Assembly: GCF_013426915.1 (NCBI RefSeq) | Contig: NZ_AP023181.1 | Location: 1,922,001 to 1,986,000, forward strand | Origin: Paraburkholderia sp. PGU19 | Lineage (GTDB): Bacteria; Pseudomonadota; Gammaproteobacteria; Burkholderiales; Burkholderiaceae | Length of the DNA: 64,000 bases | Direction of reading: 5' to 3' | Shown: positions 37,206-64,000 of the stretch, piece by piece | Layout: the number at the start of each line of letters is the position of its first letter | How positions within the stretch are numbered: the first letter of the stretch is position 1 | Made by a program: the position numbers and the translations under genes | Notes under the pieces: model-generated | Database searches by the model: none | The model's input: the letters and a program-made list of their open reading frames with translations, nothing else | Told to the model about the DNA's origin: nothing

Positions 37206-38765
37206 ATGTTCAGTACCCTCGCATACCGCAGCGGCGTGGCGGCGCTGTTGCTGTCGTTGTTCGCGTTGCCGTCGTTCGCCCAATCGTTCCGGGTGCAATG
37301 TCCACCCACTACCACACAGCATCCGTCAGCCCTGCCGGCAGGCGCGGGCGAGCCTGCCTATACGGGCCCGTCCTTCACGGGGCCGAACTCGCAGGCGACG
37401 GGCGTCGTGAACGGCGCGATCAAATGCCAGCAGATTTCGGGTGGTGACGGCTATGCCACCATGGGCGACGGCACGCAGACCTATCTGTTCGCATTCGGCC
37501 CGCTGTCAGGCCTGGCAGATATCAAGAAGGGCCTGCCGGGCACGCAGTTCGCGTCGGTGTTCAATGTCGTCGGCACGGCCGCCGATCCGAACTACAACGG
37601 CGCAATCGGCCTCGTGCCCGATCCGGACTCGTCGCCACCCGGCCAGCTGACGGGGCATGTCGATCCGCGTCAGATCATGGACGTGGGCGTGATGAACGGC
37701 AACATGCCCGCGCCGACGATGGCCATCGACGAAGACGACGAGTTCTTCCTCACGTTGACCAACGTCGGGATGATCATGCGGCCCGACCTGTTCGAGCAGC
37801 ACACGGTGCACTTCCACGGCTATCCGAATGCGTCCGCGTTCTATGACGGTGTGCCGGATGCGTCGGTGGCGATCAATATCGGCGCGAGCTTCACGTACTA
37901 CTACCTCGCGCCCGATGCGGGCACGTACTTCTGGCACTGTCACATCACGCCGCCCGAGCATCTACAGATGGGCATGGTCGGCCAGATTTTCGTGCGTCCG
38001 CGCCAGAACCGCGTGACGAACGGGACGCTCTACCACGCGCTGATCCAGCAGCAGAGCGATCCGCGCACGGCATGCGGCAACGACGTTCTCTGCTCGACGC
38101 CCGTGCCGCCGCAAAACAGCGTGCTGCACGTCAAGAACAAGAGCAACACGCCGACGCTGTATGCCTACAACGACGGCGACGGTTCGACGGCTTATGACGT
38201 CGAGTATCCCGTGCAGATTCACGGCTTCGATCCGAATTTCCACTTCGTGGGCATGACGTTCAATCCGGAGCCGTTCACCGACATGAAGGACAAGTACTTC
38301 ATGCTTAACGGCCGCAGCTATCCGGACACCGTGTCGCAAGGCCCGATGCAGACACCCGTTGCCGACGGCTCGCAGCACTTCTCGCAGCCGCTGCCCGCGC
38401 TCATCAATATCCCGGCGGGCGGCAAGGCGCTCCTGCGCATCTCGGATCTCGACGTCAGCGAGTTTCAGACTCTCGCGTCGCTTGGCATTCCGATGCATGT
38501 GATCGGCGTCAACGCGCGGCTCTTGCGCGATCTTGCCGGCAACGACATGACCTATCTGACCAACTCGATCACGCTCGGCGGCGGCGAGTCGATCGACGTG
38601 ATTCTCGATGCGAGCGACACGACCCGTTACTCGGCCGGCCAGATTTTCTATTTGTACACGCCGAACCTCGACCACCTGTCGAACGATGCCGAGAACTTTG
38701 GCGGATTGATGACGGAGGTCCACATCTGCCATTCGGTGGACCCGACCACGAAGTCCTGCACCTAG
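37206..38765 (+). CDS. Exported multicopper-oxidase-like protein 1
   Basis: 519 residues. Signal peptide LALLLSLFALPSFA-like (cleavage before QSFR). The first half contains a cupredoxin domain with HTVHFHG (H199, H202, H204) and YFWHCHITPPEHLQM (H244, C245, H246, H252, M255), so both a trinuclear-type HxH and a complete type 1 copper set are present. The second half (about 290-519) is cupredoxin-like (VQIHGFDPNFHFVGM) but lacks the usual C-terminal HCH cluster. Location periplasmic or extracellular. First gene of a long operon; protein 2 follows 10 bp later. Whether it is a complete oxidase alone is doubtful. Confidence 0.82.
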   Translation: MFSTLAYRSGVAALLLSLFALPSFAQSFRVQCPPTTTQHPSALPAGAGEPAYTGPSFTGPNSQATGVVNGAIKCQQISGGDGYATMGDGTQTYLFAFGPLSGLADIKKGLPGTQFASVFNVVGTAADPNYNGAIGLVPDPDSSPPGQLTGHVDPRQIMDVGVMNGNMPAPTMAIDEDDEFFLTLTNVGMIMRPDLFEQHTVHFHGYPNASAFYDGVPDASVAINIGASFTYYYLAPDAGTYFWHCHITPPEHLQMGMVGQIFVRPRQNRVTNGTLYHALIQQQSDPRTACGNDVLCSTPVPPQNSVLHVKNKSNTPTLYAYNDGDGSTAYDVEYPVQIHGFDPNFHFVGMTFNPEPFTDMKDKYFMLNGRSYPDTVSQGPMQTPVADGSQHFSQPLPALINIPAGGKALLRISDLDVSEFQTLASLGIPMHVIGVNARLLRDLAGNDMTYLTNSITLGGGESIDVILDASDTTRYSAGQIFYLYTPNLDHLSNDAENFGGLMTEVHICHSVDPTTKSCT

Positions 38766-38775
38766 GAGATGAGCC

Positions 38776-40434
38776 GTGGGCAACATCATCGACAACTTCC
38801 GACGCACACGCTATGCGCGGCGTGGCTCGGCGCCACGTTTTACGCTGATCCACGCGCTGCTTTGCGCAGCCGTCGTTGCGCTGCTCTATTGCATCAACGC
38901 GCACGCAGCCGCGCCGGGCATCACGGGCACGAATTTCGATCTGTCGGCCGAAGCCAACCGCATCAGCCAGCCTGATGGAGCGAGCGTCTACGCGTGGGGC
39001 TACGGCTGCCGCACCGCGCCGTCGGGCTTTTCTCCCGCCAGCATGCCGGGCGCGAACTGCCCGAGCATGCAGGTGCCGGGGCCGACGCTGATCGTCAAAC
39101 AAGGCGACAAGGTCACCGTCACGTTGACGAACAACCTGCCCGAAGCGGCGGGTAATACGTCGATCCTGTTTCCGGGCTTCCAGGTCTGCGCCGCCGTGCT
39201 GAATCCGGACGGCACGTGTCCGACGACGCTCACGGGCGTGCCGGGGCTGCTCACGCGCGAGGCGACACACGGCAACAGCGTGACCTACAGCTTCATCGCA
39301 TCGACGCCGGGCACGCATAGCTATTACAGCGGCACGCAGGGCGACCTGCAGGTCGAGATGGGTCTCGCGGGCGCGATCATCGTGCTGCCCACCTCGACGC
39401 CAACCACGGCGGGCGGCGCGCTCGCCGTCCCCGCCGGCTGTCGCGCGGTTCAGTCGACGCTGCCCGACGGCCAGCCCGACTTTCGCAACGCGGCTGCCGC
39501 ATACGACCATCCGCTGGCCTGCTACGACCGCGAGTACCTGTTCCAGTTCTCGGAGATGGACCCGCGCATCCATACGCAGGCCGAGCAGGAAGCGAGCAAG
39601 CCGTGCTCGCAGGCCACGGGTTGCATGAGCGTCGAAACCGAGCCGTACCACCCCGCGTACTTCATGATCAATGGCCGCTCGATGCCCGACGACATGGACC
39701 CGAACTACGCGCAGCAGTATCCGCATCAGCCATACAACGGCAATCCGCACATGCATCCCGGCGAACTCGTGTTGCTGCGCGTAATCGGCTCGGGCCGCTG
39801 GCAGCATCCGTTCCACGAGCACGGCAATCACGTGCGCGTGCTCGCGCGCGACGGCAATCTGCTGTTGAGCAAGACGGACGCGACGAAGCTCGCCGGGCCG
39901 CTGCTCTTTACGACGACCACGACGCCAGGCCTCGCAATGGACGGCATCTTCTACTGGACGGGCAGGGGTCTCAACTGGGACGTCTATGGACACACGGCGG
40001 GCGACGGCAGCGTCTGCGTTCCCGATGCAAACGGCTACTACACCGTCAACAGCAATCCACCCGCGCCCGCGAACGCGCCGAACTACTACGAGTGGTGCGC
40101 CGATCACAACAAGCCGCTCGAAGCGCATCCGTTCGGCAATGTCGGCAGCGGCGGCCCCGTGACCTTGCCCGATGCGCGTCTGTTCACGAACGGCCCCTGG
40201 TACGGTGGCAGCCCCTATCTCGGCCCCGACGCGACGATTCGCGCGACCTCGTTCACAGGCACGACGCCGCCGAGCGGCACGATCGCGAATCCGCCGACAT
40301 CCGAAGCCGGGTTCGCCTACATGTGGCATTCGCACAATGAGCGCGAGATTACGACGAACAACATCTTCCCAGGCGGAATGATGATGATGATGCTCGTCGA
40401 TCCGCAGGCGTTCACGATTAACGAAGGCAATTAA
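38776..40434 (+). CDS. Exported multicopper-oxidase-like protein 2, Ser at the type 1 Cys
   Basis: 552 residues from GTG 38776 (AGGAG 8 nt upstream). The signal segment FTLIHALLCAAVVALLYCIN ends near AHA-AAP. Domain 1 (about 50-205) has the oxidase fold (GPTLIVKQGDKVTVTLTNNL; GTHSYYSGTQGDLQVEMG) but lacks HWHG and WYHSH ligands. Domain 3 has HPFHEHGNH (H344, H347, H349, H352) and MWHSHNERE (H518, S519, H520), so the canonical HCH has Ser instead of Cys and no type 1 copper is expected. It therefore carries mainly trinuclear-type ligands. It may pair with protein 1, which has what it lacks. Confidence 0.82.
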   Translation: MGNIIDNFRRTRYARRGSAPRFTLIHALLCAAVVALLYCINAHAAAPGITGTNFDLSAEANRISQPDGASVYAWGYGCRTAPSGFSPASMPGANCPSMQVPGPTLIVKQGDKVTVTLTNNLPEAAGNTSILFPGFQVCAAVLNPDGTCPTTLTGVPGLLTREATHGNSVTYSFIASTPGTHSYYSGTQGDLQVEMGLAGAIIVLPTSTPTTAGGALAVPAGCRAVQSTLPDGQPDFRNAAAAYDHPLACYDREYLFQFSEMDPRIHTQAEQEASKPCSQATGCMSVETEPYHPAYFMINGRSMPDDMDPNYAQQYPHQPYNGNPHMHPGELVLLRVIGSGRWQHPFHEHGNHVRVLARDGNLLLSKTDATKLAGPLLFTTTTTPGLAMDGIFYWTGRGLNWDVYGHTAGDGSVCVPDANGYYTVNSNPPAPANAPNYYEWCADHNKPLEAHPFGNVGSGGPVTLPDARLFTNGPWYGGSPYLGPDATIRATSFTGTTPPSGTIANPPTSEAGFAYMWHSHNEREITTNNIFPGGMMMMMLVDPQAFTINEGN

Positions 40435-40453
40435 CGAGACGGGGAGAATCGCG

Positions 40454-43400
40454 ATGAGATCCTGCGATTTCAAAAGGACGCTTGCCGGCCTCGTGAAGGC
40501 GGGTGTCGCGGCGTCGGTGCTGATGACGGCGAGCGCGATGGTTTGCGCGCAGAGCGTGACGCTGACGGCCAAGGCCCAGACGATTGCACTTCCCGATGGA
40601 CAGGTCGTGCCGATGTGGGGCTACAACTGCTCGGCGGCGGCCGTCGCGCCCGCCACCTGCGCGGCGTCCAATTCCGGCGCGGGCGCGAACTGGTCGCCCG
40701 TCGTGATCACGACGCCGCCCGGCTCGCTGACGATCACTCTCACGAACAGCCTGCCGGCGCAGTTGCCGACGTCCCTCGTGATCGTCGGGCAGCTCGGTGG
40801 CGGACTCGGCAACACGGCGACCACGTCGCCAAGTCCCGTTCACGCGACCCAGACGGCAACGACCTGGCCGATCGCCGGCACGGGCAGCGGCGCGAGCTTC
40901 ACGCCGCCGACCCAAGGCCCGCGCGTGCAGTCGTTCTCTAGCGAAGTGAAAGCGGGCAGTTCGAGCAAGCTGACCTGGAACAATCTGCGCCCCGGCACCT
41001 ATCTGATCGAATCGGGCACGCACCCGTCGATCCAGGGGCCGATGGGTCTGTACGGCGTGCTCGTCGTCACGACGCCTCCCACGGCCGGTTCGACGCAAGG
41101 GCAGGCTTATCCGGGCATCCGATACGATGCGGATCTGCCGCTGGTGCTCAGCGAAATCGACCCTGTGCAGAACCAGGCCGTCACTACGGCCGTTGCCACA
41201 CCGGGCTTCAGCGAAGCGCGCGTGTGGTCGGGTCTCTCGGGCGGTTGCGGCGATCCCGCATCGGCGACCTACGGAACCTGCTATCCACCCGCGGTGAACT
41301 ACGACCCGCGCTATTACCTGATCAACGGTGTCGCGTTCGACCGGTCGAATGCCAATGGCTCCGCGTTCCCCGTTACGGCCCCCGCTGCGACGGCCAATTC
41401 GACGGGCCAGATTCTGCTGCGCTTCGTGAACGCCGGTTTGCGCATGCATGTGCCATCCGTTGTCGGCGCGCAAACGGGCCTGCCGCCCGTGTCCGGCTTC
41501 TCGCTGATTGCTGAAGACGGCAACGTGCTGCCCGGCAATCCGCGCGTGCAGAGCGCCGTATTTCTGGCCGCCGGCAAAACCTACGACGTGCTGATGAACT
41601 CGGTCGCTGCGGGCGCGCTCGCGTTGCCCGTGTTCGACCGTCAGTTGAGCCTGTCGACCAACAACCAGCGCGACGGCGGCATGCAGGGCTACATCAGCGT
41701 GAACGGCGGCGCGTTGCCGACCTCCGCGGCGGGCAATACGAACGCGAAGGCTAACCCGGATTCGTATTTCCTCGTCGCGGGTAATACGCTGACGGTCTCG
41801 GACCCTGGCAAGGGGCTGATCGCCAACGACGTGGGTGTCTACGGTGTGCAGGTCAAGACACAGCCGACAGGCGGCACGCTCACGCTGAACCCCAACGGCG
41901 CCTTCACGTATGTACCGAATGCGGGCACCACGTCGGACAGCTTCACCTATCAGGCGAACGGTAACGCCGCGCTGACCGCGACGGTCACGCTTGCCGCATG
42001 CTCGGCGGGCTCGAACTGCCTGTCGGGGGCACCCGTCGCGTCGGATGACGCGTTCAGCAGCAACATCGCGTCGCAGTTGCACATCGGCGCGCCGGGCGTG
42101 CTCGGCAACGACCGCGATCCGGCGGGGCTGCCGCTGACGGCTTCGATCGTCGGCAGTGCGTCGGGCGGCACGGTGACGCTCAATGCGGACGGCTCGTTCA
42201 ACGCTGTGCCGAGCGCGGCACCCGTCGGCAACGCGACGTCGACGGTCACGTTCAAGTACAAGGCCGTCAACTCGCAGAACACGGCTAGCGGGGCCGCGAC
42301 AGTCACGGTGACCTTCAAGGGCGGCAGCGGTCTCGCCGTCGCGGTGAAGGATGCGAAGACGGGGACGGCAATCAACGACTACCGCTGGATCATCGAAGAA
42401 GACCGTACCTTCCAGATCGATCCCGCTTGCCAGGTGAACTCGTCGACGCGGCCCGCGACGTGTCCGCCGCTGCCCGTGCCAAGCCTCGGCACGAGCTTCC
42501 ACACGAGCTACATGCCCGTCGTCGCGGCGGGATGCGTCGGCACGGTATCGTGCGAATCCGGGCAGACTGTGTTCGATCCGGGCACGAATACGCACGTCCC
42601 CGCCGTGTGCGACGTCGGCAACGGCGTGTGCCGCACGGATTCGGCCCAGCAGACTGCTGTCGATCCATCGCAGGTCGCACTCGATCCGACGAAGCACTAC
42701 TACCTGTCGATTCTTCCCGGCGACGCCGGCAACACCTTCACGAATGGCGCGGGCGCGCCGCAGCCGGTCGATCCGAACAACCCCAACGGTGCGCAACGGC
42801 AGTTCGACATTGCGAAGGATTGTCCGTCGGGTCCGGGCGGCGCGGACTTCGCGCCCGGCACGGGCACCTGCGGCCACGCAATGGGCGGCGCGCCGGTCGC
42901 GCCCACGCAACATGCCGTCAACGTGCTGCTTCAGCAGACTCCGTTGCAGACGGCGAAAATCTCGGTGTTCGTGTTCGAAGACGATGCGCCCGTCAACGGC
43001 GAAGTCGATGTGAGCGGCGGCACGGATGCGTTCGGCACGGCGCGCGAGCCGGGCCTCGGCGGCTTCGAAATCAAGCTGTTCGACGACGCGGGCGGCACGG
43101 GCGACGCGACCGGCCAGATGACGTACGACATGTTCAACATGCCGCTGTCGAATTCGCTGCAAGGCACGATCGATCCGAGCACCGGCCTCGACGCATGCCC
43201 GATCACGAAGGCCGCGAACGACGGCCTGGTCGGCATGATTCCGACCTGTCCGAAGTTCGAATCGGATGGCAAGACAATGTCGCCGCTGGTGGGCCAGGCA
43301 ATCATTGCGAACCTGATGCCGGGCCGCTACGGTGTCGTTGCGACGCCGGCTGCGGACCGCATCGCGAAGGGCGAAGAATGGCTGCAGACCAATACGCTGG

Positions 43401-46400
43401 ACGGCCAGAAAGCGCACGATGCGTTCATCAAGGTGGGTGGCCCCGCCTACTTCCAGGAGTTCGGACCGGCCGGCTTCCACGTGACGATCGGCTTCGCGAA
43501 TCCGAAGATCATCAACGCGCGGCTGCCGGGTGTGTGCAAGGGCGTGCCGTGCAACAACGGCGTCACGGGCAAGATCACGAACCTGCACTACAGCCGTCCG
43601 CCTAACGAGAACCTCTACAGCAGCGGCTCGCGCGATTCGCTGAGCTTCACGCAATGCTATGTGAGCGTCGGCGATCCCGACCTCGAAGATATCGCATTCA
43701 CGAAGTGCAACGCGGACGGCACGTTCAGCATCACCGGCCTGCCGGATGGTCTGTTCCGCATCACGGTGTTCGACCAGTGGAACGACCAGATCGTCGACGG
43801 TCTCGCGACGGCGGTGCAGCTCAAAGGCGGACAGACGCAGAACGTCGGCGACCTGGCCGTGCTGCAATGGCATACGAATCTCTACACGCGCAGCTTCATC
43901 GATACGAACGGCGATGGCGTGTCGCAGGACAGCGAGCCGGGTCTCGCGCTCGTGCCGACCAATATCCGCTTCCGCGACGGCAGCTATTCGAACTTCAACA
44001 ACACGGACCTGAACGGTTACGCGTCGTTCAACGAGGTGTTCCCGCTCTTCAACTGGTACATCGCGGAGGCCGACACGACGCGCTACAAGCAGACGGGCGT
44101 GCATGTCGTCTACGACGCGGGCGGCCCGCCTGACGGCACGCCTGGCGGCGGTGGCTCGTCGATCGCGGCGAACTACGCGAACACGCTGGAATCGTCGACG
44201 GCGCATCTGCCGAACGCGTTGCGCGTGCCGGGCGCGATCTACTGCAACGACGCGGACTGCAATGACCGCACGGGCACCAATCCGTCGACGGGCCGCATCG
44301 ACCCGCCGTGGGTCACGACGATGGGCTGGCAAGGCTTCTCAGGCCAGAACTCGTTCATCGAATTCGGCAAGGCGCCGTATGGGGCGAACGAGAACGGCGG
44401 CATTCATGGCGAAGTGATCTATGCATCGACACGCCCGTTCGACGATCCGGCTCTGCTGATCCATACGAGCTGGACGCCTGACGTGCCGAACGTGACGGTC
44501 AACCTGTACGCCGAAGGCACGGCTGCCGACGGCACGCAGAGCCTCACGCTCGTCGATACGACGAAGACCAGCAGCTGGGACGACTGGGCGCAGGGTTTCC
44601 GTTCGGATGGCGTGCCGAACATGAACTGCCCGGGCCAGGAAACCACTGATCCGTTCTTCTATACGCTGAAGGACAGCTCGCAATGGCTCGACCCGCAAAA
44701 GCGGACGCTGCCCATGCACTCGCAGTTCAAGTGCTATGACGGCATGCACGCGTTCAACCAGTTGCAGCCCGCGCCATACGACGGGATGTACCAGTTCCCG
44801 AGCGTGACGGACCGCGATCCGCAGAAGGGCACGCCGAAGGGTTCGAACTGCACGATCTGCAGCAAGCTCGCCGACGGCTCGTACATGCTGCCTGCGGGCA
44901 AGTATGTGGTCGAAGTCATCGTGCCGCCGGGCTATGAACTCGTGAAGGAAGAAGACAAGAACATCCTGATCGGCGACAACTACATCGCGCCTGTCACGCA
45001 GCAGTTCGGCGGACTGGGCAACATCTTCATCCTGCCCGACCAGGCAGCCGTGAACGCGACGTACAACCGCAACAACGCGCAGAACCCCACCACGGAGCTC
45101 GGCTCGTCGCCGCGTCACGAAGGCGACACGGGCAGCGTCGAGACGTTCTGGCCGTGCGTCGGCGCGCTGCGTGTGGTGCCGGACTACATCAGCCTGTTCC
45201 CGGGCTCGCAGGAAGTCGCGCCGTTCGCGGGCGCCTCGCGGCACCTGTGCGACCGCAAGGAAGTCGTGCTGACCAACCAGATGTCGGTGCTCGCGAAGTT
45301 CTGGGTGTTTAGCTCGACGCACGTGGCCGCGCACTTCACCGGCTTCATGCTCGATGACTTTTCTTCGGAGTTCGATCCGTACTCGCCGCAGTTCGGCGAA
45401 AAGTTCGCGGTCCCGAACGTGCCAGTTTCGATGAAGGATTTCGCCGGCAACGAAGTGAGCCGCATCTATTCGGACCAGTGGGGCATCTTCAACGGGTTGA
45501 ATTACTCGACGTGGGAAGTGAACCCGCCGAACCCGACGGGCTACGCGCCGACGATGATGGTCGCCTGCATGAACGATCCCGACATGCCCGACCCGGCGCA
45601 TCCGGGGCAGACGATCCGCGACCCGCTGTTCAACCCCGCGTACAGCCAGTTCTGCTACGAGATTCCGTTCATGCCCGGGCAGACGCAGTACATGGATACG
45701 CCTGTCGTGCCCGTGTCCGCGTTCGCAGACGGCTACAACCCACCCGATTGCGCGTATCCGGACGCGACGCCCGCGATCTCGTCGGTGACGGGCGACACGA
45801 GCAACGGCGGCGCGGGTCCGTGGGTGAGCCAGGCCGGCCATACGCTGACCATCAAGGCGCTCGGCGACCAGCAGGTGCCGAATCATGCCTACGGCGGCCC
45901 CGCTGCGACCACGTCGCCGTATAACCAGAAGTTCGTCACGCGGCACTATGGCTTCGGCGCTTCGCAGGGCACCGGGACGGTGACGGTCGGTGGTGTGAAT
46001 GCGCACGTGAACGCGTGGTCGGATACGCAGATCAACATCACGGTGCCGACGCTGTCCGCGAACCAGTCGAGCTGCACGATCCAGCAGCGCGGCGTCAATA
46101 CGCAGACGCGCTGCGGCGAACTGGTCATCACGTCGGGCAACGGCAAGAAATCGATCGATACCGTGACGGTCACGATCGGCGGCAAGGCACCTGCCTATGT
46201 CGGCGGCGAGAATGGGACGAACAACGCGATCCAGACGGCCATCGACAAGGCGACCCCTGGCGACCTCATCATCGTCGGGCCGGGCAACTACAGCGAAATG
46301 CTGCTGATGTGGAAGCCCGTTCGTCTGCAAGGCGTGGGCGCGCCCGCCGTGGTGGTGAATGCGAATACGCATCCGTCGGGCAAGCTCGACCCGTGGCGCA

Positions 46401-49101: not shown

Positions 49102-49135
49102 GGCGTATGCGCGGCACGACATTGAGGAGATCGAC

Positions 49136-49945: not shown

Positions 49946-49969
49946 CGCCACGTCGATGAGGTCACGATC

Positions 49970-50803: not shown

Positions 50804-50808
50804 CGATC

Positions 50809-53555: not shown

Positions 53556-53713
53556 TCTTCCTGAGCCGGGCGCAGGCGTGGCAGGGTTTTGCCGCCAAGC
53601 GTTAGCATAACGAAATATATTCGTAATGTGCAAGAAAGTAACAATCGAAAGAAGAAGAATTTTGTGCTCGCCATGTTATGGCATACGCACTTACACGACA
53701 CGAGGAGCCGGCC

Positions 53714-55681: not shown

Positions 55682-55778
55682 GGGCGCTCCCGTCTGGTTG
55701 ACCCGAAAAACTCTGAAGCCGCTGTGGGATTGTAGGCCGCGCGCCACGCGCGCGGCAACGGGGCACGTGCTGCGTTTC

Positions 55779-55958: not shown

Positions 55959-56975
55959 ATGAACACCCACAGGCTCGTAATCGGTGCGCTCATTCTGACG
56001 GGCGCGGGACTGACGGCGCTACCCGCGTTGAGCGCCGAGGAAGAGCAGGCGCCCGCAGCCGATGCGGCGATGGCGGCGCAACCTCACGACGCGTCGATGA
56101 ACATGGACGAGGCTAAAGGCGATGACCCGATCGCGGAGACGGCTGCAAAGTCCAAGGCAGCGCAAGACAACGCGCCGACCAGTGCCGCGCTGCAAGGCAT
56201 GACGGCGAAGCAGCGCGTGATGAAGGAAGCGGCAGCGGCACAGGCAGCAGCAAAAGCCACAGAAGAAAAGGATGCCGCGACGGAACAGACGCCCGCGCAC
56301 GATGCACACGCGATGCCGGCGGACATGCCGATGGATAACATGCCGATGCCCGCCGCGCATGACACGGCCGCGCCCGCGGACGCCATGCCCCCGCACGACG
56401 AGCAGTCGAAAGACAAGCTTCACTCGATGTCCGGCGAGCACGAGATGCACGCGCATCATCACGACATGGCGCCAGGCACGACACGCACCACGGTGGACTA
56501 CGCGTTGCCGCCCGTTACGCTGGTGCGCGACGACGGCGAGTCCGTTTCGCTCGTCGACGAACTGAACGACGGCCGCCCCGTAGTGTTGACGTTCATCTAC
56601 ACGTCATGCACGACGATCTGCCCGATGGTCAGTCAGACCTTCGAGCAATTGCAGGAGGAACTCGGCAGCGAGCGCGACAACGTGCATATGGTGTCGATCT
56701 CGATCGATCCCGAAGAGGACACGCCCGCGCGCCTCAGGGCCTACGCTGAGCGCTTCGGTGCGGGTCCGGAGTGGCAGTACTACACGGGCACGGTGGAAGC
56801 GAGCGTCGCCGCGCAGCGCGCGTTCAACGTCTATCGCGGCGACAAGATGAACCACACGGCCGTCGCGTTCTTCCGCGCCGCGCCGGGCAAGCCGTGGCTG
56901 CGCCTGGATGGTCTCGCGACTCCCGACGAACTGTTGAGCGCCTATCACGAGATCGTCGCCCGCAACGGTTCGTGA
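55959..56975 (+). CDS. SCO1/SenC-type copper chaperone with Met/His/Ala-rich extension
   Basis: 338 residues from ATG 55959 (GAGGAGG upstream). Signal peptide GALILTGAGLTALPALSA. Residues about 25-170 form a long low-complexity region rich in Ala, Met and His (for example DMPMDNMPMPAAHDTAAP, HEMHAHHHDMAP) likely to bind copper. Residues about 175-335 are an SCO thioredoxin fold: LTFIYTSCTTICPMVSQTF (CxxxC copper ligands), SISIDPEEDTPARLRAYAERF and NHTAVAFF (His ligand). It probably delivers Cu to the multicopper oxidases or a terminal oxidase. It is followed 23 bp later by response regulator 2. Confidence 0.92.
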   Translation: MNTHRLVIGALILTGAGLTALPALSAEEEQAPAADAAMAAQPHDASMNMDEAKGDDPIAETAAKSKAAQDNAPTSAALQGMTAKQRVMKEAAAAQAAAKATEEKDAATEQTPAHDAHAMPADMPMDNMPMPAAHDTAAPADAMPPHDEQSKDKLHSMSGEHEMHAHHHDMAPGTTRTTVDYALPPVTLVRDDGESVSLVDELNDGRPVVLTFIYTSCTTICPMVSQTFEQLQEELGSERDNVHMVSISIDPEEDTPARLRAYAERFGAGPEWQYYTGTVEASVAAQRAFNVYRGDKMNHTAVAFFRAAPGKPWLRLDGLATPDELLSAYHEIVARNGS

Positions 56976-56998
56976 ACGCGCCGCGCGGAGGTGACAAC

Positions 56999-57691
56999 GT
57001 GGAGAAGATCCACCGGGTGCTGATCGCCGAAGACCAGCCGCTGCTACGCGGGGGGCTGTGCTCGATGGTCCGCGCGTTGCAGCACTACAGCGTCGCGGGC
57101 GAGGCGGGCGACGGCGTCGAGGCGTGCAGTCTCGCCGCGACGCTGATGCCCGACCTGATCCTGATGGACCTGTCGATGCCCGGCAGAAGCGGCGTCGAAG
57201 CGATCGCGCACATCAAGCGGCAAGCGCCGCAGATCAGGATCATCGCGCTGACCATCCACGCGAGCGATATGCATATGCGCGAGGCGCTGGCGGCAGGTGT
57301 CGATGGCTATGTGCTCAAGGACGCGGCGTTCGACGAGCTTGTCGAGGCGATGCGTCTGGTCATGCTCGGCCAGCGCAATGCGACGCTCGACGAATATGGC
57401 GCGCGACAGGGCGAGCCGCGCGGCCAGCCCTCGAACGGGCAGCACGCGCAGATGTGGAGCGCGCTGACTTGCCGCGAGCGCGTCGTGCTGCGTCTCGTTG
57501 CCGAGGGCTGCACCAATCGCGAAGTGGGCGAGCAGCTGCGCCTGAGTCCCAAAACCATCGAGAAACATCGCGCCAGCCTGATGCGCAAGCTCGGCGTATC
57601 GAATGCGGCGGGACTCGTGCACGCGGCGCTCGATCTCGGCGTGCTCGCGCTGCCCGAAGACACGGGAAATGGGTTGAACTACTTCGTTTGA
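56999..57691 (+). CDS. NarL/FixJ-family response regulator 2
   Basis: 230 residues from GTG 56999 (GGAGG about 7 nt upstream). Receiver: [27 protein letters not shown] (phospho-Asp), IIALTIHAS and YVLKDAAFDE. LuxR-type [41 protein letters not shown]. Close in sequence to regulator 1 (53714-54505), so the pair arose by duplication. It is co-transcribed with the SCO gene and lies just upstream of the secretion operon. Confidence 0.92.
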   Translation: MEKIHRVLIAEDQPLLRGGLCSMVRALQHYSVAGEAGDGVEACSLAATLMPDLILMDLSMPGRSGVEAIAHIKRQAPQIRIIALTIHASDMHMREALAAGVDGYVLKDAAFDELVEAMRLVMLGQRNATLDEYGARQGEPRGQPSNGQHAQMWSALTCRERVVLRLVAEGCTNREVGEQLRLSPKTIEKHRASLMRKLGVSNAAGLVHAALDLGVLALPEDTGNGLNYFV

Positions 57692-57693
57692 AC

Positions 57694-57718: not shown

Positions 57719-57827
57719 CATCTGTTTGCACGAGTCTCCCTACTTCGCGCGTGTGCGGGCCTGAACAACAATGCACACAGGCGTCTGGCCTGCGCGACAC
57801 GCGCGGCATTCACAGGGGGACCACACC

Positions 57828-58295
57828 GTGAGCGACATCCCGTTCATGTCCACATGCGGCAGACCCATCGATACGCATGCACGGCAAGCCGCGCGCGAGA
57901 CAGGCTTCACGCTGCTCGAACTGCTGGTGGTCATGGTCATCATCGGTTTGCTGGCGGGTCTCGTCGCTCCGCGCTATTTCGAGCAGATCGGCAAGTCGAA
58001 CACGAAGATCGCGCGCGCGCAGATCGAATCGCTCGGCAAGGCGCTCGATCAATTCCGGCTCGATGTCGGCGCGTATCCGACCACGGAACAGGGCCTGCAG
58101 GCGCTGATGACAAAGCCGCAAGACGCGCCGCACTGGAGCGGCCCCTATCTGCAGAAGGCCGTGCCGCCCGATCCGTGGGATCGCCCCTATCAGTATCGCG
58201 CGCCCGGCGAACACGCCGACTACGACCTGTATTCGTACGGCAAGGACGGCCAGCCGGGCGGCTCGGGCGAGAACGCGGACGTGACGTCCTGGTGA
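57828..58295 (+). CDS. gspG: Type II secretion major pseudopilin GspG
   Basis: 155 residues from GTG 57828 (AGGGGGA 7 nt upstream; ATG 57846 also possible). A type III signal (prepilin) sequence is clear: AARETG|FTLLELLVVMVIIGLLAG, with Glu at +5. The globular part has DVGAYPTTEQGLQALMTKP, PPDPWDRPYQYRAPG and DLYSYGKDGQPGGSGENADV, the GspG-specific calcium-loop region. It polymerises into the pseudopilus that pushes substrates through the secretin. First gene of the secretion operon. The leader before the cleavage site is unusually long (over 35 residues). No GspH-K genes are seen in the window. Confidence 0.93.
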   Translation: MSDIPFMSTCGRPIDTHARQAARETGFTLLELLVVMVIIGLLAGLVAPRYFEQIGKSNTKIARAQIESLGKALDQFRLDVGAYPTTEQGLQALMTKPQDAPHWSGPYLQKAVPPDPWDRPYQYRAPGEHADYDLYSYGKDGQPGGSGENADVTSW

Positions 58296-58315
58296 ACGGT
58301 GCGAGGAGAAGCGAC

Positions 58316-59518
58316 GTGAAGTATGTGCTGCGGGTCTTCGATACGAACGGGGCGGTGCAGACGGTGCACGTCGAGAGCGATTCGACGGCGGCGGCCACGT
58401 CTCTCGCCCGCGCGCGCGGGCTGCGTGTCGTGTCGGTGCGCGGCGAGCGCGGCAGCGCGCGTTTGCGCCTGCGCACGCCTGCGCTCGCGCGCGGCAAGTT
58501 CAATGTCGAACTCTTCGCACGCGAACTCGCAGCGCTGCTTTCGGCGGGCGTCGGTGTGGTCGATGCGTTGCGCACGCTCGCGAGCAACGAGCGCCGCGAA
58601 CGTTCCGCCGCCGTGTATCGCGGGTTGTTGCGGCGGCTCGAAGAAGGCCAGTCGTTGTCGGCGGCGCTCGAACAGGCCAGCGACGTTTTCCCCGCCGTGC
58701 TCGTCGCCTGTGTGAAAGCGAGCGAGCAGACGGGCGGTCTCGCAGACAGTCTCACGCGCTATTCGCGCAACAGCGCGATGCTGCATGAACTGCGGGGACG
58801 GGTGGTGTCCGCGGCGATCTATCCGACGGTGCTACTGGTGGTTGGCGCGGTAGTCGTGCTCTTTCTGTTGGGCTTCGTCGTCCCGCGCTTCGCGACGCTG
58901 CTCGAACATAGCGGGCGCGAACTACCGCTTCTTTCTCAATTGCTGATCGCGTGGGGCAGCATGGTTCACGCGCATGGCAAGGAACTCGCAACGGGCTTCG
59001 CCGTGCTCGTGTTCGTTGCGGCCATCGTGCTGCGCCGCCCTTCCGCGCGCGACTGGATTGCCGACCGCATGCTCGCGTTGCCGGGCATCGGCGAATACTT
59101 TCGGGTGTTCCGTCAATCGCAGTTCTTCCGCACCACGGCGATGCTCGTCGACGGCGGCATCCCGGCCATCCGTGCATTCGATCTTGCGCGTGGGCTCGTC
59201 GGTCGTTCCGATCAGGCATCGCTTGCGCGTGCGCTCGATCAGGTGCGCAACGGCGCGAAGATTTCCGACGCGTTCCAGCAGGCGTCGCTGGCTGATGCGA
59301 TCACGTACCGGCTGTTGACCGTCGCGGAGAAAACTGGCGGTCTCGGGCCCGTGCTCGACCGGATCGCGGCGTTTCAGGAATCACAGGTGGCGCGCGCAAT
59401 CGATCTGATCTCACGGCTGATCGAGCCCGCGATGATGATCTTCATTGGCATCGTGATCGGCGGCATTGTCGTGCTGATGTACATGCCGATCTTCGAAATC
59501 GCATCGAGCGTTCAATAG
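58316..59518 (+). CDS. gspF: Type II secretion inner-membrane protein GspF
   Basis: 400 residues from GTG 58316 (GAGGAG upstream). Two T2SF domains: ELAALLSAGVGVVDALRTLA, ASEQTGGLADSL and FFRTTAMLVDGGIPAIRAF, VAEKTGGLGPVLDRIA. Three hydrophobic segments: about 165-190 (TVLLVVGAVVVLFLLGFVVP), about 220-240, and the C-terminal IFIGIVIGGIVVLMYMPIF. Platform protein linking the ATPase to the pseudopilus. Follows GspG by 20 bp. Confidence 0.92.
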   Translation: MKYVLRVFDTNGAVQTVHVESDSTAAATSLARARGLRVVSVRGERGSARLRLRTPALARGKFNVELFARELAALLSAGVGVVDALRTLASNERRERSAAVYRGLLRRLEEGQSLSAALEQASDVFPAVLVACVKASEQTGGLADSLTRYSRNSAMLHELRGRVVSAAIYPTVLLVVGAVVVLFLLGFVVPRFATLLEHSGRELPLLSQLLIAWGSMVHAHGKELATGFAVLVFVAAIVLRRPSARDWIADRMLALPGIGEYFRVFRQSQFFRTTAMLVDGGIPAIRAFDLARGLVGRSDQASLARALDQVRNGAKISDAFQQASLADAITYRLLTVAEKTGGLGPVLDRIAAFQESQVARAIDLISRLIEPAMMIFIGIVIGGIVVLMYMPIFEIASSVQ

Positions 59519-59532
59519 CAGGCGAGGATCTC

Positions 59533-61263
59533 ATGGACACGGCGAGCATCGCGAACGGCATCGGCGGAACGGGCGGCGTCGATCTGCGCGATGCGCTGCG
59601 CACCCTCGCCGAGCGTCACGGCTCCGGCCTGCGCGCGCTCGAAGATCTGCTCGCGCAGATGCCCGTCAGCCCCGACGAAGTGCTCGCGCAACTCGCTGTG
59701 CAATGTCACATGCAGCCGATCACGATGCATGCGCTGAACGCGCTGCAGCCGGATTTCGACGTCGTACCGTTCGTCGAGGCGACGACCCGCCTGTGCATCT
59801 GCTTTCGCGATACCGAAGACTCCGCGGCGGGACGCGGCCTGTTGTTCGTGATCGCCGATCCGCTCGACCGGCGCACGCGCGGCAGTATCGAGCAACGCAT
59901 GCGCGCGCGGCCCGCCGTGCCGTATCGCTGGGCGCTCGCGAGTATCGGCGACATCACCGCGTGGCTCGCGGTGCGCGAGAAGGACGTGCGCGCGATGGAC
60001 TCGCTTGCGTTCGACCAGACGACCCAGCATGCCGCTGATCCCGCGTCGCTTGCGCTGACGCTGCAAGGCATCAGCAACGACGACAGCGCCGTCGTGCGCC
60101 TGCTGAATTCGACGATCTATGACGCCCTGAAAATGATGGCGAGCGACATACACCTCGAATGCCGCGCGCATGGGCTGATGATCAAATGCCGTGTCGACGG
60201 CGTGCTGACGGTGGTGGGGCGCGTCGAAGGGCGCGACGTCGCGGATCAGGTGCTGTCGCGCGTGAAAGTCATTTCGGAACTCGACATCGCCGAGCGCCGC
60301 GTGCCTCAGGACGGACGTTTCAAGGCCGTCTATGCGGGCCGCGAGATCGATTTTCGCGTGTCGATCATGCCGAACCAGTTCGGCGAAGACGCGGTGCTGC
60401 GCATTCTGGATCGCTATCAGCTGTCGCAGGCGTCGGGCGGCCTCACGCTCGAAGCGCTCGGTTTCCAGCAGGAAGACACGCGTTTCATGCGCACGGTCGC
60501 CGCGATGCCGTACGGCATGCTGCTCGTCACGGGGCCGACGGGCAGCGGCAAGACGACGACGCTCTACGCGATCCTCACGGAGATCAACGACGGACTTGAA
60601 AAGATCGTGACCATAGAGGACCCCGTCGAGTATCAACTGGGCGACATTCTGCAGATTCCCGTCAACGAGGCAAAAGGGCTGACATTCGCGCGCGGTCTTC
60701 GCTCGATCCTGCGCCATGATCCAGACAAGATCATGGTCGGTGAAATTCGCGATCCGGAGACGGCGCAAATTGCGGTGCAGGCGGCATTGACAGGCCACCA
60801 GGTCTTCACGACTGTGCACGCGAACAATGTATTCGACGTGATCGGCCGCTTCACGAACATGGACGTCGACCCCTACAGCTTCGTGTCGGCACTGAACGGC
60901 GTGATCGCGCAACGACTCTTGCGCCAGTGCTGCCCGGACTGTGTCGCCGAAGATACCGTCGATGCCGATGCACTTGCGCGATCGGGCATTGATCCGGATG
61001 CGGCGGGCGGCTATCTGTTCCGGCGCGGCATGGGCTGCGCAGCCTGCCGCGGTAGCGGCTATCGCGGACGGCGCGCCGTCGCGGAAGCGTTGCGCATGGA
61101 CGACGAACTGCGGCAACTGCTGTCCGAACGCGCGCCGCTTACGCAGATCAAGGCGGCCGCATTCCGGCAGGGCATGACGACGCTGCGAAGCGCGGCGATC
61201 AAGCTCGTGCGGCAGGGCGAGACGACCCTCGAGGAGATCAACCGTGTCACCATGGTCGATTGA
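59533..61263 (+). CDS. gspE: Type II secretion ATPase GspE
   Basis: 576 residues. N-terminal domain (about 1-190), then the ATPase core: SDIHLECRAHGLMIKCRVDG (Asp box region), Walker A GPTGSGKTTTLYAIL (about 334), the Asp-box TIEDPVEYQL, Walker B LRHDPDKIMVGEIRDPETA and His-box TGHQVFTTVHANN. A four-Cys zinc site is present (CCPDC and CAAC). It powers pseudopilus assembly from the cytoplasm. GAGG precedes ATG 59533; the 3' end overlaps the next gene by 20 bp. Confidence 0.94.
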   Translation: MDTASIANGIGGTGGVDLRDALRTLAERHGSGLRALEDLLAQMPVSPDEVLAQLAVQCHMQPITMHALNALQPDFDVVPFVEATTRLCICFRDTEDSAAGRGLLFVIADPLDRRTRGSIEQRMRARPAVPYRWALASIGDITAWLAVREKDVRAMDSLAFDQTTQHAADPASLALTLQGISNDDSAVVRLLNSTIYDALKMMASDIHLECRAHGLMIKCRVDGVLTVVGRVEGRDVADQVLSRVKVISELDIAERRVPQDGRFKAVYAGREIDFRVSIMPNQFGEDAVLRILDRYQLSQASGGLTLEALGFQQEDTRFMRTVAAMPYGMLLVTGPTGSGKTTTLYAILTEINDGLEKIVTIEDPVEYQLGDILQIPVNEAKGLTFARGLRSILRHDPDKIMVGEIRDPETAQIAVQAALTGHQVFTTVHANNVFDVIGRFTNMDVDPYSFVSALNGVIAQRLLRQCCPDCVAEDTVDADALARSGIDPDAAGGYLFRRGMGCAACRGSGYRGRRAVAEALRMDDELRQLLSERAPLTQIKAAAFRQGMTTLRSAAIKLVRQGETTLEEINRVTMVD

Positions 61264-62158
61264 TTCGCCCAGCGCGGACATCAACATCGGCATCGGCACG
61301 CGCGAGGTCTTTGTTGGGCCGCGCTGGCCGCGCTGGACGCTGGCGCACAAGCCCACTTCGGCCACCGGGCCGCGAAGCGTGCCGATGCCCGAAACCCAAT
61401 GGTTCACGCAAGCGGGTGTATTCGACGCACTGCGCGTAGCGCTCGAACCCGCGCCGGATAGCGTCGTGCCACAAGCGTCGCGTATGCCTTCCCGAACGCG
61501 CGGCGCCCATATCGTGCTCGACGACTTCTGGGGCAACCACGCGATACTGCGTGGCGACTTCCGCACGTTGCGCGCACGAGAAATCGACGAGATCGCACGT
61601 GCGCATTTCGTCGATACGTATGGTGTCGATGGCGAAACCATCGTTGTGCGCGCATGTGTGCAGCGCGGCGGACGCGCGATGTTTGCCAGCGCGTTGCCGC
61701 GCGCGCTGGTGGATGGCATGGGCGAGGCGAGTGCGTCGGCCGGCGCCCGCGTGCTGGCGTTGAAACTGTGCCTGCCTGAAATGCTCAACCGGACGCTGCC
61801 CGGCATGCCTCGCGCAAACGCGATGATCGTGTTCGCCGCCGACGCGTTGATCCAGGCGGTGCTGATAGAAGCGGGTTGCTGGGCCTGTTATGACGCGCAG
61901 CGCCTTTTCGCTGGCGACGCATGCGATCCCGCAAAAGTCACGCTGCTCGCGGAACAGGCGTTCGAACGCTGCGCGGAACGTACGACGCTCAGACGCGAGG
62001 ATTGCGCGCTGGGCTTCTACGGCTCCCGCATTGCAATCGATCTCGCTGCGCTGCAAGCGCGCTTTGCGAGCGTGACTACGCTGGCTCCGTCGAATGCCTG
62101 TGATGCACTTGAGGGGATCGAGAGCTTTGCGCGCCATCTGCTGGAGTACGCGCAATGA
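61244..62158 (+). CDS. PilM/GspL-like cytoplasmic assembly protein
   Basis: 304 residues from GTG 61244, overlapping the end of gspE. Sequence is divergent. SRTRGAHIVLDDFWGNHAILRG followed by AREIDEIARAHFVDTYG and LPRALVDGMGEASASAGARV looks like the actin-like fold of PilM/GspL cytoplasmic domains. No membrane helix is seen, as in PilM. Its position directly before PilN- and PilO-like genes supports this reading. It would link GspE to the inner-membrane platform. Assignment rests partly on context. Confidence 0.65.
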   Translation: MSPWSIDSPSADINIGIGTREVFVGPRWPRWTLAHKPTSATGPRSVPMPETQWFTQAGVFDALRVALEPAPDSVVPQASRMPSRTRGAHIVLDDFWGNHAILRGDFRTLRAREIDEIARAHFVDTYGVDGETIVVRACVQRGGRAMFASALPRALVDGMGEASASAGARVLALKLCLPEMLNRTLPGMPRANAMIVFAADALIQAVLIEAGCWACYDAQRLFAGDACDPAKVTLLAEQAFERCAERTTLRREDCALGFYGSRIAIDLAALQARFASVTTLAPSNACDALEGIESFARHLLEYAQ

Positions 62159-62685
62159 TCCAGCGATTCGACATCGACTTCGCTCGCCGCCGGTCACGCC
62201 TCGCGCCAGCGGGACTCATCGTGCTGTGCATTGCGATTTGCGCGCTGCTTGCGAGCGGCGTGCGGCTGTGGCAGGCATTCAATGACAACGAGCAGGTGCA
62301 GGAACGGTTGGACGAAGCGCGTCATCGCGTGCTCGCCAAAGCGCATCTTGTCAGGGCGCAACCAACGCCCGCGGCGATGCATGCGGAAAAGCAGAGCCTT
62401 GCGGTGCTGAGTGAACTGACGGTGCCGTGGCAGGACCTGTTGTCGATTGTCGAGGACTATCCGGACCATGATGTCGCGCTGATCGGCATCGATCAGAATC
62501 CGGTGCAGAGCCAGATTCGCATTACGGCGGAAGCGAAGAACTTCGACGCGATGATCGCGTATCTGCGCTATCTGCAATCGAGCAAGCTATTGCGTGAGGC
62601 CGTGCTCAACGATCACGAGATCGAAGCCAATGTTCCGGGCACGCCCGTCCGGTTTCAGGTTACCGCCGTGTGGAGCCGCTCATGA
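62155..62685 (+). CDS. PilN-like inner-membrane assembly protein
   Basis: 176 residues; ATG overlaps the previous TGA (ATGA). One membrane helix near the N-terminus (APAGLIVLCIAICALLASGVRL), then a coiled coil (NDNEQVQERLDEARHRVLAKA) and a small alpha/beta domain (IRITAEAKNFDAMIAYLRYL) ending near VRFQVTAVW, the shape of PilN/GspL periplasmic parts. Forms the platform with the PilM-, PilO- and PilP-like products. Confidence 0.72.
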   Translation: MIQRFDIDFARRRSRLAPAGLIVLCIAICALLASGVRLWQAFNDNEQVQERLDEARHRVLAKAHLVRAQPTPAAMHAEKQSLAVLSELTVPWQDLLSIVEDYPDHDVALIGIDQNPVQSQIRITAEAKNFDAMIAYLRYLQSSKLLREAVLNDHEIEANVPGTPVRFQVTAVWSRS

Positions 62686-63248
62686 ACGTCGAGCTTGTGC
62701 GCGAGCGCTGCCTGACCCTGCGTTTCGAATTGATGCGGCGCTTCGGTGTAGCGGGGATCGCAGGCATCGCGTTGCTATGTGCTGCTGCCGTCGTGGCCGA
62801 TGGCGCGATGCGCATGCAAAGCGACACGCTCACGCTATCGAACGAGGTTCGGCCTGCCCGTACCGCGAAGCAGGCAGACGTTGCCCACGACGCGGGTTCG
62901 TACACGGATACCGCCGTGCTCGCGAGCTTGCCCGATCTCTTTCCGCGTTTCGCGCATAGCGCGGACGATATCGCGGCGATACTCGCGCACGCCCATGACA
63001 GCAATCTGGCAGTCGGCTCGGCGGAATACGTCGTCGTTGCCGATCCAGGCGGACGTTACGTGCGCTATCAGATGCTGCTGCCCGTCAAGGACCAGTACGT
63101 CACGATTCGCCGGTTTCTTGCGTCGGTGCTCAACAGCGTGCCGAACGCGGCGTTGCGCGAGATTCACGTCGAACGGCCCGCCGTGGACGGCAGCGTGCTC
63201 GATGCTCGCGTCCGGTTCGAACTCGTATACGGGACGGCGCGGCCATGA
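62682..63248 (+). CDS. PilO/GspM-like inner-membrane assembly protein
   Basis: 188 residues from ATG 62682, overlapping the previous stop (GGAG 7 nt upstream). One membrane helix (FGVAGIAGIALLCAAAVVAD), then a linker and an alpha/beta domain (LPDLFPRFAHSADDIAAILAHAHDSNLAVGS; VRYQMLLPVKDQYVTIRRFL), the organisation of PilO or GspM. It probably dimerises with the PilN-like protein. Confidence 0.7.
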   Translation: MNVELVRERCLTLRFELMRRFGVAGIAGIALLCAAAVVADGAMRMQSDTLTLSNEVRPARTAKQADVAHDAGSYTDTAVLASLPDLFPRFAHSADDIAAILAHAHDSNLAVGSAEYVVVADPGGRYVRYQMLLPVKDQYVTIRRFLASVLNSVPNAALREIHVERPAVDGSVLDARVRFELVYGTARP

Positions 63249-63823
63249 GTACCGTTCTCGTTCGCCGCTTGCTGCTGGGCATGTGCCTGATCGCGACGAT
63301 CGCGCTTTCCGTGAAGGCGTGGCGCGCTCCGGAAGGATCATCGGCGATGGCGGCTGTGAGTGTCGCGCGTCATGACGTCGCGTTGGCGGCTTCTTCGGTT
63401 CACTCCGCTGCAAAACACGACCGCGCGAAATCGTCCGGCAAAGCAACGCAGGCAGCGAGCGAAAAGACCGCGAACGAAAAGCTCGCGAGGTTGCGCAAGC
63501 CCATGTCGCTCGAATCGCGTAACAACCCGTTTGCCGCCTCGTCGTGGCTGCCACCTCCGCCCCCACCGGTACAGGCTGCGCCCGAGCCTCCGCCGCCGCC
63601 GACCGCGCCGCCCGTGCCGTATGTGTATCTCGGCAAACTGGACGGTTCGACGCTCAAGCCACGTGTTTTTCTCAGCAGTGGCGATCAGTTGGTGATCGTG
63701 TCTCAGGGAGAAGTCGTCGATGGACAGTACCGCGTCGAGTCGATCTCCGACGCTGACATCGTGCTGATGTATCTGCCGTTGAATCAAAGGCAGGTCATAC
63801 CCATGCAAAGCGAAGGAAAATGA
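63245..63823 (+). CDS. GspC/PilP-like protein with Pro-rich linker
   Basis: 192 residues, ATG overlapping the previous stop. N-terminal helix LLLGMCLIATIALSVKAW, a long Ala/Lys linker, a Pro-rich stretch (WLPPPPPPVQAAPEPPPPPT), and a small beta domain (VPYVYLGKLDGSTLKPRVFL, VDGQYRVESISDADIVLMYL) like the homology region of GspC or PilP. This domain normally contacts the secretin N0 domain, which fits the probable secretin gene that follows. Confidence 0.75.
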   Translation: MSTVLVRRLLLGMCLIATIALSVKAWRAPEGSSAMAAVSVARHDVALAASSVHSAAKHDRAKSSGKATQAASEKTANEKLARLRKPMSLESRNNPFAASSWLPPPPPPVQAAPEPPPPPTAPPVPYVYLGKLDGSTLKPRVFLSSGDQLVIVSQGEVVDGQYRVESISDADIVLMYLPLNQRQVIPMQSEGK

Positions 63824-63837
63824 GCGAAGGAACATAA

Positions 63838-64000
63838 ATGACAGCCGCATGCAGCCGCGATCGGAGCCGCAACGGGGACAGCGGCTCATCTACGCGCTAT
63901 CCACCGCATTCCGCGCCCCTCACGCATGGCTCGCCCCGTGTCCCGCTCACGAAGCGCCAGGCCGCGTGCATCGCATTGGCCGTGCTGGCGTTGGGCGGCT
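63838..64000 (+). CDS. Probable secretin (GspD), N-terminus only
   Basis: ATG 63838 has AAGGA at 7 nt. The frame is open to the window end (54 codons): a Ser/Arg/Pro-rich leader, then a hydrophobic segment (AACIALAVLALGG-like) that looks like a signal peptide. Being last after a GspC/PilP-like gene, it is most likely the outer-membrane secretin, but no secretin domain is visible yet. Confidence 0.5.
   Translation, partial: MTAACSRDRSRNGDSGSSTRYPPHSAPLTHGSPRVPLTKRQAACIALAVLALGG

Follow-up and report, generated by a model that had tools for sequence, protein, structure and literature searches.

A putative split-site multicopper oxidase and its linked atypical type II secretion operon in Paraburkholderia sp. 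PGU19

Gene content of the locus

We analysed a 64,000-nucleotide stretch of the Paraburkholderia sp. PGU19 genome (contig NZ_AP023181.1, positions 1,922,001 to 1,986,000; hereafter the window), the last 27 kb of which encode two multicopper oxidase (MCO)-like proteins, MCO1 and MCO2, a giant exported protein, a group of copper- and cytochrome-related genes, and an operon resembling a type II secretion system (T2SS). The host genome is 11.2 Mb in size, the window lies on the contig that we number C3, and the giant is 97% identical to a protein of Paraburkholderia caribensis MBA4. An initial annotation had read these genes as one copper-dependent extracellular oxidation system with its own secretion machine. 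The genes that it named are all present as uninterrupted open frames where that annotation had placed them, and Pfam searches confirmed the Cu-oxidase, SLT, regulator, kinase, SCO1/SenC, T2SSG, T2SSF, T2SSE and first LolA-like assignments. The features are listed below by window position and strand; L006 to L093 denote the 88 loci examined.

37206..38765, + strand: MCO1, 519 amino acids (aa), putative two-cupredoxin subunit (Cu-oxidase_3, E = 3e-16)
38776..40434, + strand: MCO2, 552 aa, putative two-cupredoxin subunit (Cu-oxidase_3, E = 1e-12)
40454..48625, + strand: giant exported protein, 2723 aa (domain matches and profile alignment of the N-terminus)
48622..49101, + strand: small exported protein, 159 aa, no assigned family (conserved position)
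49082..49945, + strand: LolA-like protein 1 (PF17131, E = 4.7e-7, just at the curated cut-off)
49970..50803, + strand: LolA-like protein 2 (PF17131, E = 0.056, below threshold)
50803..52479, + strand: cytochrome c protein with a long C-terminal part, MofC-like by description (Cytochrom_C, E = 5.5e-6)
52518..53258, - strand: lytic transglycosylase, SLT (PF01464, E = 1e-28)
53678..54505, + strand: NarL/LuxR-type response regulator 1 (Response_reg and GerE)
54548..55747, - strand: PAS histidine kinase (HisKA_3)
55962..56975, + strand: SCO1/SenC copper chaperone, start codon uncertain (PF02630, E = 3.5e-22)
56984..57691, + strand: NarL/LuxR-type response regulator 2, start uncertain (Response_reg and GerE)
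57771..58295, + strand: GspG major pseudopilin (T2SSG, E = 1e-43; above the NCBIfam GspG cut-off)
58298..59518, + strand: GspF-like inner membrane protein (T2SSF, E = 1e-45; under the NCBIfam GspF cut-off)
59533..61263, + strand: GspE-like ATPase (T2SSE, E = 2e-118; 463 bits against a GspE cut-off of 630)
61244..62158, + strand: protein in the GspL/PilM position, start uncertain (position and synteny only; no family match)
62155..62685, + strand: PilN-like protein (PF05137, E = 6e-4, below cut-off)
62670..63248, + strand: protein in the PilO position (position and synteny only)
63245..63823, + strand: PilP/GspC-like protein (TIGR03021, E = 0.001, below cut-off)
63838..64000, + strand: secretin gene (761 aa), first 163 bases in the window, L006:838-3123 (Secretin, E = 3.8e-41)

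Paralogy and copper ligands of the cupredoxin proteins

By profile-profile alignment (hhalign), MCO1, MCO2 and the first 440 residues of the giant are paralogues with a two-cupredoxin layout each. MCO2 matched the giant N-terminus with a probability of 99.9 (E = 3.2e-33), MCO1 matched MCO2 with 99.0 (E = 5.7e-18) and MCO1 matched the giant N-terminus with 96.5 (E = 8.3e-10). The cupredoxin pair of the giant spans residues 35 to 420, approximately, and beyond it lie cadherin/Big domains, SdrD_B, an IPT/TIG-like stretch (a label that one source uses to name a relative), a beta-helix-like part with a weak NosD match and a choice-of-anchor-Q end. In genomes G035, G106 and G438 two genes encode what the giant combines, one the cupredoxin part (frames of 644-668 aa) and the other the adhesin/beta-helix part (1702-1732 aa). 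This split supports the view that the giant is a third subunit of the oxidase carrying a fused surface arm.

Copper ligands were compared in rows with an MCO1 or MCO2 match of at least 200 bits covering at least 60% of the query (75 rows for MCO1 and 77 for MCO2). The first domain of MCO1, with the motifs HTVHFHG ... HCHITPPEHLQMGM, holds a whole type 1 (T1) copper site and four trinuclear His. Residues H199, H202, H204, H244, C245, H246, H252 and M257 were invariant in 75/75 rows, placing the T1 ligands (H199, C245, H252, M257) in the N-terminal cupredoxin domain throughout. In MCO2 it is the second domain, with the motifs HPFHEHG ... HSH, that holds four trinuclear His (H347, H349, H518 and H520; 77/77 rows), and Ser519 occupies the position of the T1 Cys in every row. 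The first domain of MCO2 is without ligands and has no conserved His, Y184 being His in 4 of the 77 rows, and the positions of the second MCO1 domain that face the trinuclear site are Ile/Val, Tyr/Phe and Pro/Thr/Ser. The two halves sum to one full ligand set in all 75 sources having both rows, the window included, and no single MCO1 or MCO2 row of the alignment has all eight His or both trinuclear halves. Because the ligands are complementary between the two chains, one catalytic unit should need both, and MCO1 and MCO2 would have to meet to form the active site.

The best profile match of these proteins among solved structures was 3g5w, a type C two-domain multicopper oxidase; domain 1 of MCO1 aligned with its first domain (E = 1.3e-17). 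MCO2 matched 3g5w with an overall E of 7.6e-15, the stretch of its domain 2 alone being weak (17 bits).

These data bear on an alternative, in which MCO1 and MCO2 act as separate enzymes, or a single one of them is active as a homotrimer, and the giant is an adhesin whose N-terminus merely resembles a cupredoxin. Two-domain oxidases are described as trimers, type B being known as homotrimers (PMC13151041), two of the three proteins of a similar cluster in Sideroxydans lithotrophicus ES-1 are said to have canonical multicopper motifs (PMC12016527), and position 431 of MCO1, which aligns with MCO2 H347, is still His in 45/75 rows. However, neither chain completes the eight His in any row, MCO1 domain 2 and MCO2 domain 1 are otherwise without conserved ligands, and the paralogy of the giant N-terminus with MCO2 is clear. 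We consider separate enzymes distinctly unlikely.

Co-occurrence with one GspE clade in Burkholderiaceae

The initial annotation had suggested a check for conserved co-occurrence across Burkholderiaceae, and this check bore it out. The giant, MCO1 and MCO2 were each found in 16 of 200 Burkholderiaceae genomes, the same 16 in each case, distributed over 6 of 25 genera. Relatives of the window GspE occurred in 189/200 genomes, and those of at least 78% identity (at least 947 bits) in exactly the 16 giant-bearing genomes; the next match below this clade was at 56% (576 bits). GspE matches of the 50-56% group were present in genomes that have no giant, which confines the association to the 78% clade. 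Giant-bearing and giant-less genomes were intermixed within the genus of the window. Giant and GspE lay on one contig, within 16 kb, in nine of the 16 genomes, and on different contigs of draft assemblies in the other seven. For Burkholderiaceae, these data give strong support to the proposal of a single system that includes its own secretion machine.

The cytochrome protein was found in the same 16 genomes and in G229. Across the order the system is rare, with the giant in 3/150 genomes and MCO2 in 7/399 (the window's genome is counted in both). Genome G183 carries a second, diverged oxidase cluster (L092 and L093, G183:C53), with a giant of 47% identity, an MCO1 of 64% with an in-frame stop, an MCO2 of 60% and, on the opposite strand, a cytochrome protein of 51%.

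Conservation across proteobacteria and Acidobacteriota

An alignment of the giant scanned over a species-genome collection found 242 relatives, the best 80 of which were kept and correspond to 78 distinct loci. Hosts among these 80 were Paraburkholderia, Burkholderia, Trinickia, Collimonas, Cupriavidus, Ralstonia, Pandoraea, a Sideroxydans metagenome-assembled genome (MAG), other proteobacterial MAGs and many Acidobacteriota. Because the oxidase core recurs in these loci of several phyla, the gene content is far beyond chance. Loci were grouped by record titles; L072, labelled Terrabacteria, was placed in neither group, and one 'Deltaproteobacteria' MAG was counted as proteobacterial. Downstream genes were counted only in loci with at least 6 kb after the giant.

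In proteobacteria, MCO1 and MCO2 were present in all 51 loci, and the small protein, both LolA-like proteins and the cytochrome protein in all 49 with sufficient downstream sequence. SCO was found in 27 of these 49. All 22 others have a block encoding a Cyc2-like protein and a dihaem cytochrome, and SCO is out of range there because this block pushes the next genes away. A T2SS piece lay beside the oxidase in 20/51 loci, upstream in nine and downstream in 11. That the link has been kept through rearrangement argues for function.

The Acidobacteriota loci had MCO1 in 23/26 and MCO2 in 25/26 cases. L062 and L068 start inside or just before the giant, and L054, with 10 kb of upstream sequence, has neither MCO1 nor MCO2. 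Among the 14 Acidobacteriota loci with sufficient downstream sequence, the small protein was present in 13 and the LolA-like proteins in nine, and the cytochrome and SCO in none. No T2SS piece passed our test in any of the 26 loci. A weakly similar secretin was linked in six of them, and the two that were checked were a TPR-secretin (L066) and a secretin (L048). From these counts, MCO1, MCO2, the giant and the small protein make up the core, to which the proteobacterial form adds a linked cytochrome, SCO and T2SS. The idea of a single system with a secretion machine of its own is therefore not universal, as in Acidobacteriota the oxidase core stands without nearby SCO, cytochrome or GspE. The initial annotation had said that regular occurrence of the oxidase operon without SCO or secretion genes would refute it; such operons were found in Acidobacteriota.

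GspE was also searched for in 31 genomes of giant-bearing loci. A GspE of at least 61% identity was present in 15/15 Burkholderiales, seven of which, judged by match coordinates, repeat genomes of the 200-genome set and eight of which are additional. Of 13 Acidobacteriota genomes, 11 had a GspE of 51-57%, none inside the loci examined, one had a 245-residue piece of 60% and one had no match. In a Granulicella locus (L048:22607-27330) an efflux pair, made up of a CusB-like and an RND (AcrB/CusA-type) gene, lies after the oxidase core, a possible copper supply in Acidobacteriota.

The secretion operon

The T2SS operon, which holds GspG, GspE, GspF and secretin homologues together, extends about 3.7 kb past the window end. 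After the secretin, which has a weak TPR match at its N-terminus, come two pseudopilins, then in pseudopilin-like position a third small protein that had no Pfam match, and lastly a sigma-54 regulator, to C3:1991368; the porin and ABC-transporter genes downstream of the regulator are apparently unrelated. GspG passed its NCBIfam equivalog cut-off (184 against 89 bits), and three components scored under theirs: GspE (463 against 630), GspF (248 against 424) and GspD (183 against 351).

A second, diverged T2SS-like operon is present in the same genome (L085:6187-16606; G000:C3, about 1171-1182 kb), with a GspE of 55-56% identity, and adjoins genes for a ferritin-like protein, a small cytochrome c and a MerB-like protein. 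As an alternative partner of the oxidase it was rejected, since a search of the surrounding 34 kb (L085, L086) for relatives of three proteins, MCO1, MCO2 and the giant, found none.

Accessory genes

The 159-aa small protein had no Pfam match at 0.001, the best being NfeD with an E of 0.25. The initial annotation had described two LolA-like proteins and a cytochrome c fusion. The first LolA-like protein and the Cytochrom_C domain (residues 76-175) were recovered; LolA-like protein 2 stayed below threshold, and the rest of the cytochrome protein had no identifying match in Pfam, NCBIfam or the PDB, a C-terminal periplasmic-binding domain likewise not being confirmed by family and structure searches. 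In L092 both LolA-like queries matched one and the same gene. A long N-terminal extension of the SCO protein (window 55962-56500) is rich in His and Met and could bind copper. In G229 (L087:12757-15041) the cytochrome protein and SCO occur with no MCO1, MCO2 or giant within the 20 kb examined, suggesting that this pair may also serve something else.

A Cyc2-like block in other loci

A Cyc2-like gene is present in L012 (L012:23937-26066) and 24 other loci, 25 of the 88 in all, the others being at least 34% identical to the L012 copy. It encodes a single-haem (one CxxCH), exported protein with an aromatic, porin-like C-terminus; the label rests on this architecture, as the protein had no family match and no meaningful PDB match. 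The other loci are:

L013, L015, L016, L019, L020, L022, L023, L025, L026, L028, L029, L031, L032,
L033, L035, L037, L038, L041, L043, L049, L053, L055, L059, L061

A dihaem cytochrome accompanies the Cyc2-like gene in 23/25 loci. In L012 the cytochrome gene is followed by the Cyc2-like gene, the dihaem cytochrome and a cytochrome-assembly gene (PF01578, L012:26376-27608). Twelve draft contigs (L016, L019, L020, L022, L023, L025, L026, L028, L029, L033, L037 and L043) end inside the PF01578 gene, as if a near-identical second copy lay elsewhere in those genomes. An rRNA operon was considered as the cause of the recurrent contig ends after the cytochrome gene, and none was found in L012 or L015.

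These cytochromes raise the possibility of an electron-uptake chain, in which the cupredoxins would take electrons from a mineral and feed them across the outer membrane into respiration by way of periplasmic cytochromes, and not to O2 on the spot. The cytochrome c protein accompanies the oxidase in every proteobacterial locus with sufficient downstream sequence, the Cyc2-like gene is present in 25 of the 88 loci, and ES-1 raises its similar cluster on magnetite (PMC12016527). Set against this, the window contains no Cyc2-like gene and none was found in the host genome (an empty search answer, and so a weak negative), the Acidobacteriota loci have no linked cytochrome, and the complete T1 and trinuclear site argues for O2 reduction. 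We regard electron uptake as possible but rather unlikely. The initial annotation, too, had electrons passing to a cytochrome, a step that the data do not support and that is not needed since the predicted enzyme has a complete T1 and trinuclear site and could reduce O2 itself.

Proposed system and substrate

The best explanation of the locus, to which we assign a probability of about 0.62, is one extracellular heterotrimeric oxidase with a split site, which a dedicated atypical T2SS would export in folded form. Three paralogous two-cupredoxin subunits, namely MCO1, MCO2 and the N-terminal region of the giant, would make up this multicopper oxidase. Its full catalytic unit would exist only at the contact of MCO1 and MCO2, MCO1 supplying the T1 site and half of the trinuclear site and MCO2 the other half, with O2 as the probable electron acceptor. 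The giant would close a ring of six cupredoxin domains and tether it to the adhesin/beta-helix arm, holding the enzyme at a surface or on a particle. SCO, and perhaps the cytochrome protein, would load copper in the periplasm; the initial annotation had also assigned copper loading to SCO, and the gene fits that role. The LolA-like and small proteins may help in assembly or outer-membrane handling, the assembled and folded complex would leave the periplasm through the linked atypical T2SS, and the kinase and two NarL-type regulators probably control the system.

Several observations weigh against this proposal. On the enzyme itself, besides the His retained at MCO1 position 431, the giant N-terminus has neither ligand set and a lone His332 (80/81 rows) opposite MCO2 H344. 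MCO2 H518 and H520 were mapped onto MCO1 Y484 and P486 by a weak alignment and by the same distance to a GG(L/M)M motif, and AlphaFold2 models were of low confidence both for MCO1 (mean pLDDT 51, 27 aligned sequences) and for MCO2 (mean pLDDT 41, 19 aligned sequences). On its partners, the identity of the T2SS cargo is suggested by neighbourhood, and the Acidobacteriota loci are without linked cytochrome, SCO and T2SS, L054 also being without both oxidases. As to the co-occurrence, the 78% GspE threshold was placed at the gap after the gap was seen, MCO2 of G183 was seen only in the second, diverged cluster, and the probability of drawing the same 16 of 200 genomes at random (5.9e-24) is not corrected for kinship, so that relatedness lowers its weight.

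Paraburkholderia, Burkholderia, Trinickia and Collimonas are common in soil and on plants, and many hosts of the cluster belong to these genera. This would suit a secreted oxidase of phenols, lignin or humic matter, and one two-domain oxidase is described as slowly oxidising phenolic lignin models (PMC13151041). However, the only expression data in the literature covered, the raising of the similar ES-1 cluster on magnetite, concern an iron mineral (PMC12016527). An oxidase of this kind is conceivable rather than probable; mineral-bound Fe(II) is the best current lead for the substrate, with an organic substrate next. Mn(II), which the initial annotation had considered, would be oxidised by the giant acting as a multicopper oxidase. 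MofA/OmpB clusters do resemble the locus in their MofC-like cytochrome protein and SCO, and in Geobacter also in an atypical T2SS (PMC5566968). However, the giant is without both ligand sets and the literature covered links no Mn phenotype to the cluster. Mn(II) oxidation is unsupported, and we consider it very unlikely.

A broader reading, which we favour by a small margin over its negation, is that gene duplication divided an ancestral homotrimeric oxidase into three chains, the first with the T1 site and half of the trinuclear site, the second with the other half and the third turned into the structural head of the giant's extracellular arm, that the T2SS exports the copper-loaded heterotrimer, and that this arrangement, in proteobacteria and Acidobacteriota, is an intermediate toward six-domain oxidases such as ceruloplasmin. 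If so, there would be a reason why the cupredoxin genes come as a trio and why expression of a single gene may fail. An export route would be named for an oxidase family tied by proteomics to growth on iron minerals, the origin of six-domain oxidases would have a natural model, and MCO1, MCO2, the giant and the GspE clade together would be a marker for genome surveys.

Comparison with known systems

Gene clusters of this kind are already in print (He et al. 2017; the 2025 ES-1 proteome). The ES-1 cluster Slit_1812-1818 is described as encoding two cupredoxins with multicopper motifs, a larger one without them that has adhesin/lyase-like domains, small proteins, SCO and a cytochrome, and similar clusters were noted in Paraburkholderia, Ralstonia, Anaeromyxobacter and Steroidobacteraceae (PMC12016527). 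The 2025 proteome reports Slit_1812-1818 as raised on magnetite relative to Fe(II)-citrate, and on late fresh magnetite Slit_1816 reached percentile 79.3, compared with 13.7, and Slit_1817 reached 74.8, compared with 0 (PMC12016527). Matched by published description, the gene content at our locus is alike: two MCOs, a large cupredoxin, small proteins, SCO and a cytochrome. In contrast, the word 'secretion' is absent from the main text of that paper, and we found no mention of split ligands there (PMC12016527). Among the best 120 of 6750 MCO2 matches, Sideroxydans sp. CL21 is present and ES-1 is not.

He et al. (2017) describe three tandem MCO genes in ES-1 with mofC-like and SCO genes, and deny homology of this trio to OmpB/MofA (PMC5566968). 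The OmpB/MofA clusters carry MofC-like proteins (He et al. 2017, PMC5566968), and OmpB is tied to an atypical T2SS in Geobacter by the title of Mehta 2006 as cited in PMC5566968. Our locus resembles these clusters in having extracellular MCOs that adjoin a cytochrome c protein and SCO (PMC5566968).

Compared with T2SSs, the operon is alike in its GspG above cut-off and its GspE, GspF and secretin homologues, and differs in its PilN/PilP-like inner-membrane parts, the weak N-terminal TPR of its secretin and the three components under equivalog cut-offs. In two-domain oxidases the trinuclear site is described as made by residues of two protomers, with T1 in the N-terminal domain in type C (PMC13151041). 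The predicted enzyme is like type C in its first-domain T1 and in a trinuclear site shared by two protomers, but here each half lies on the product of a different gene, and the giant carries a third copy that has neither ligand set. We found no description of a heteromeric split-site oxidase, or of a T2SS with this cluster, in the open-licence PMC literature searched. What is new beside the known cluster is the predicted split active site and the strict T2SS pairing. Ceruloplasmin and MnxG have six cupredoxin domains and one trinuclear site in a single chain; the same number of domains and one such site are predicted here to be spread over three chains.

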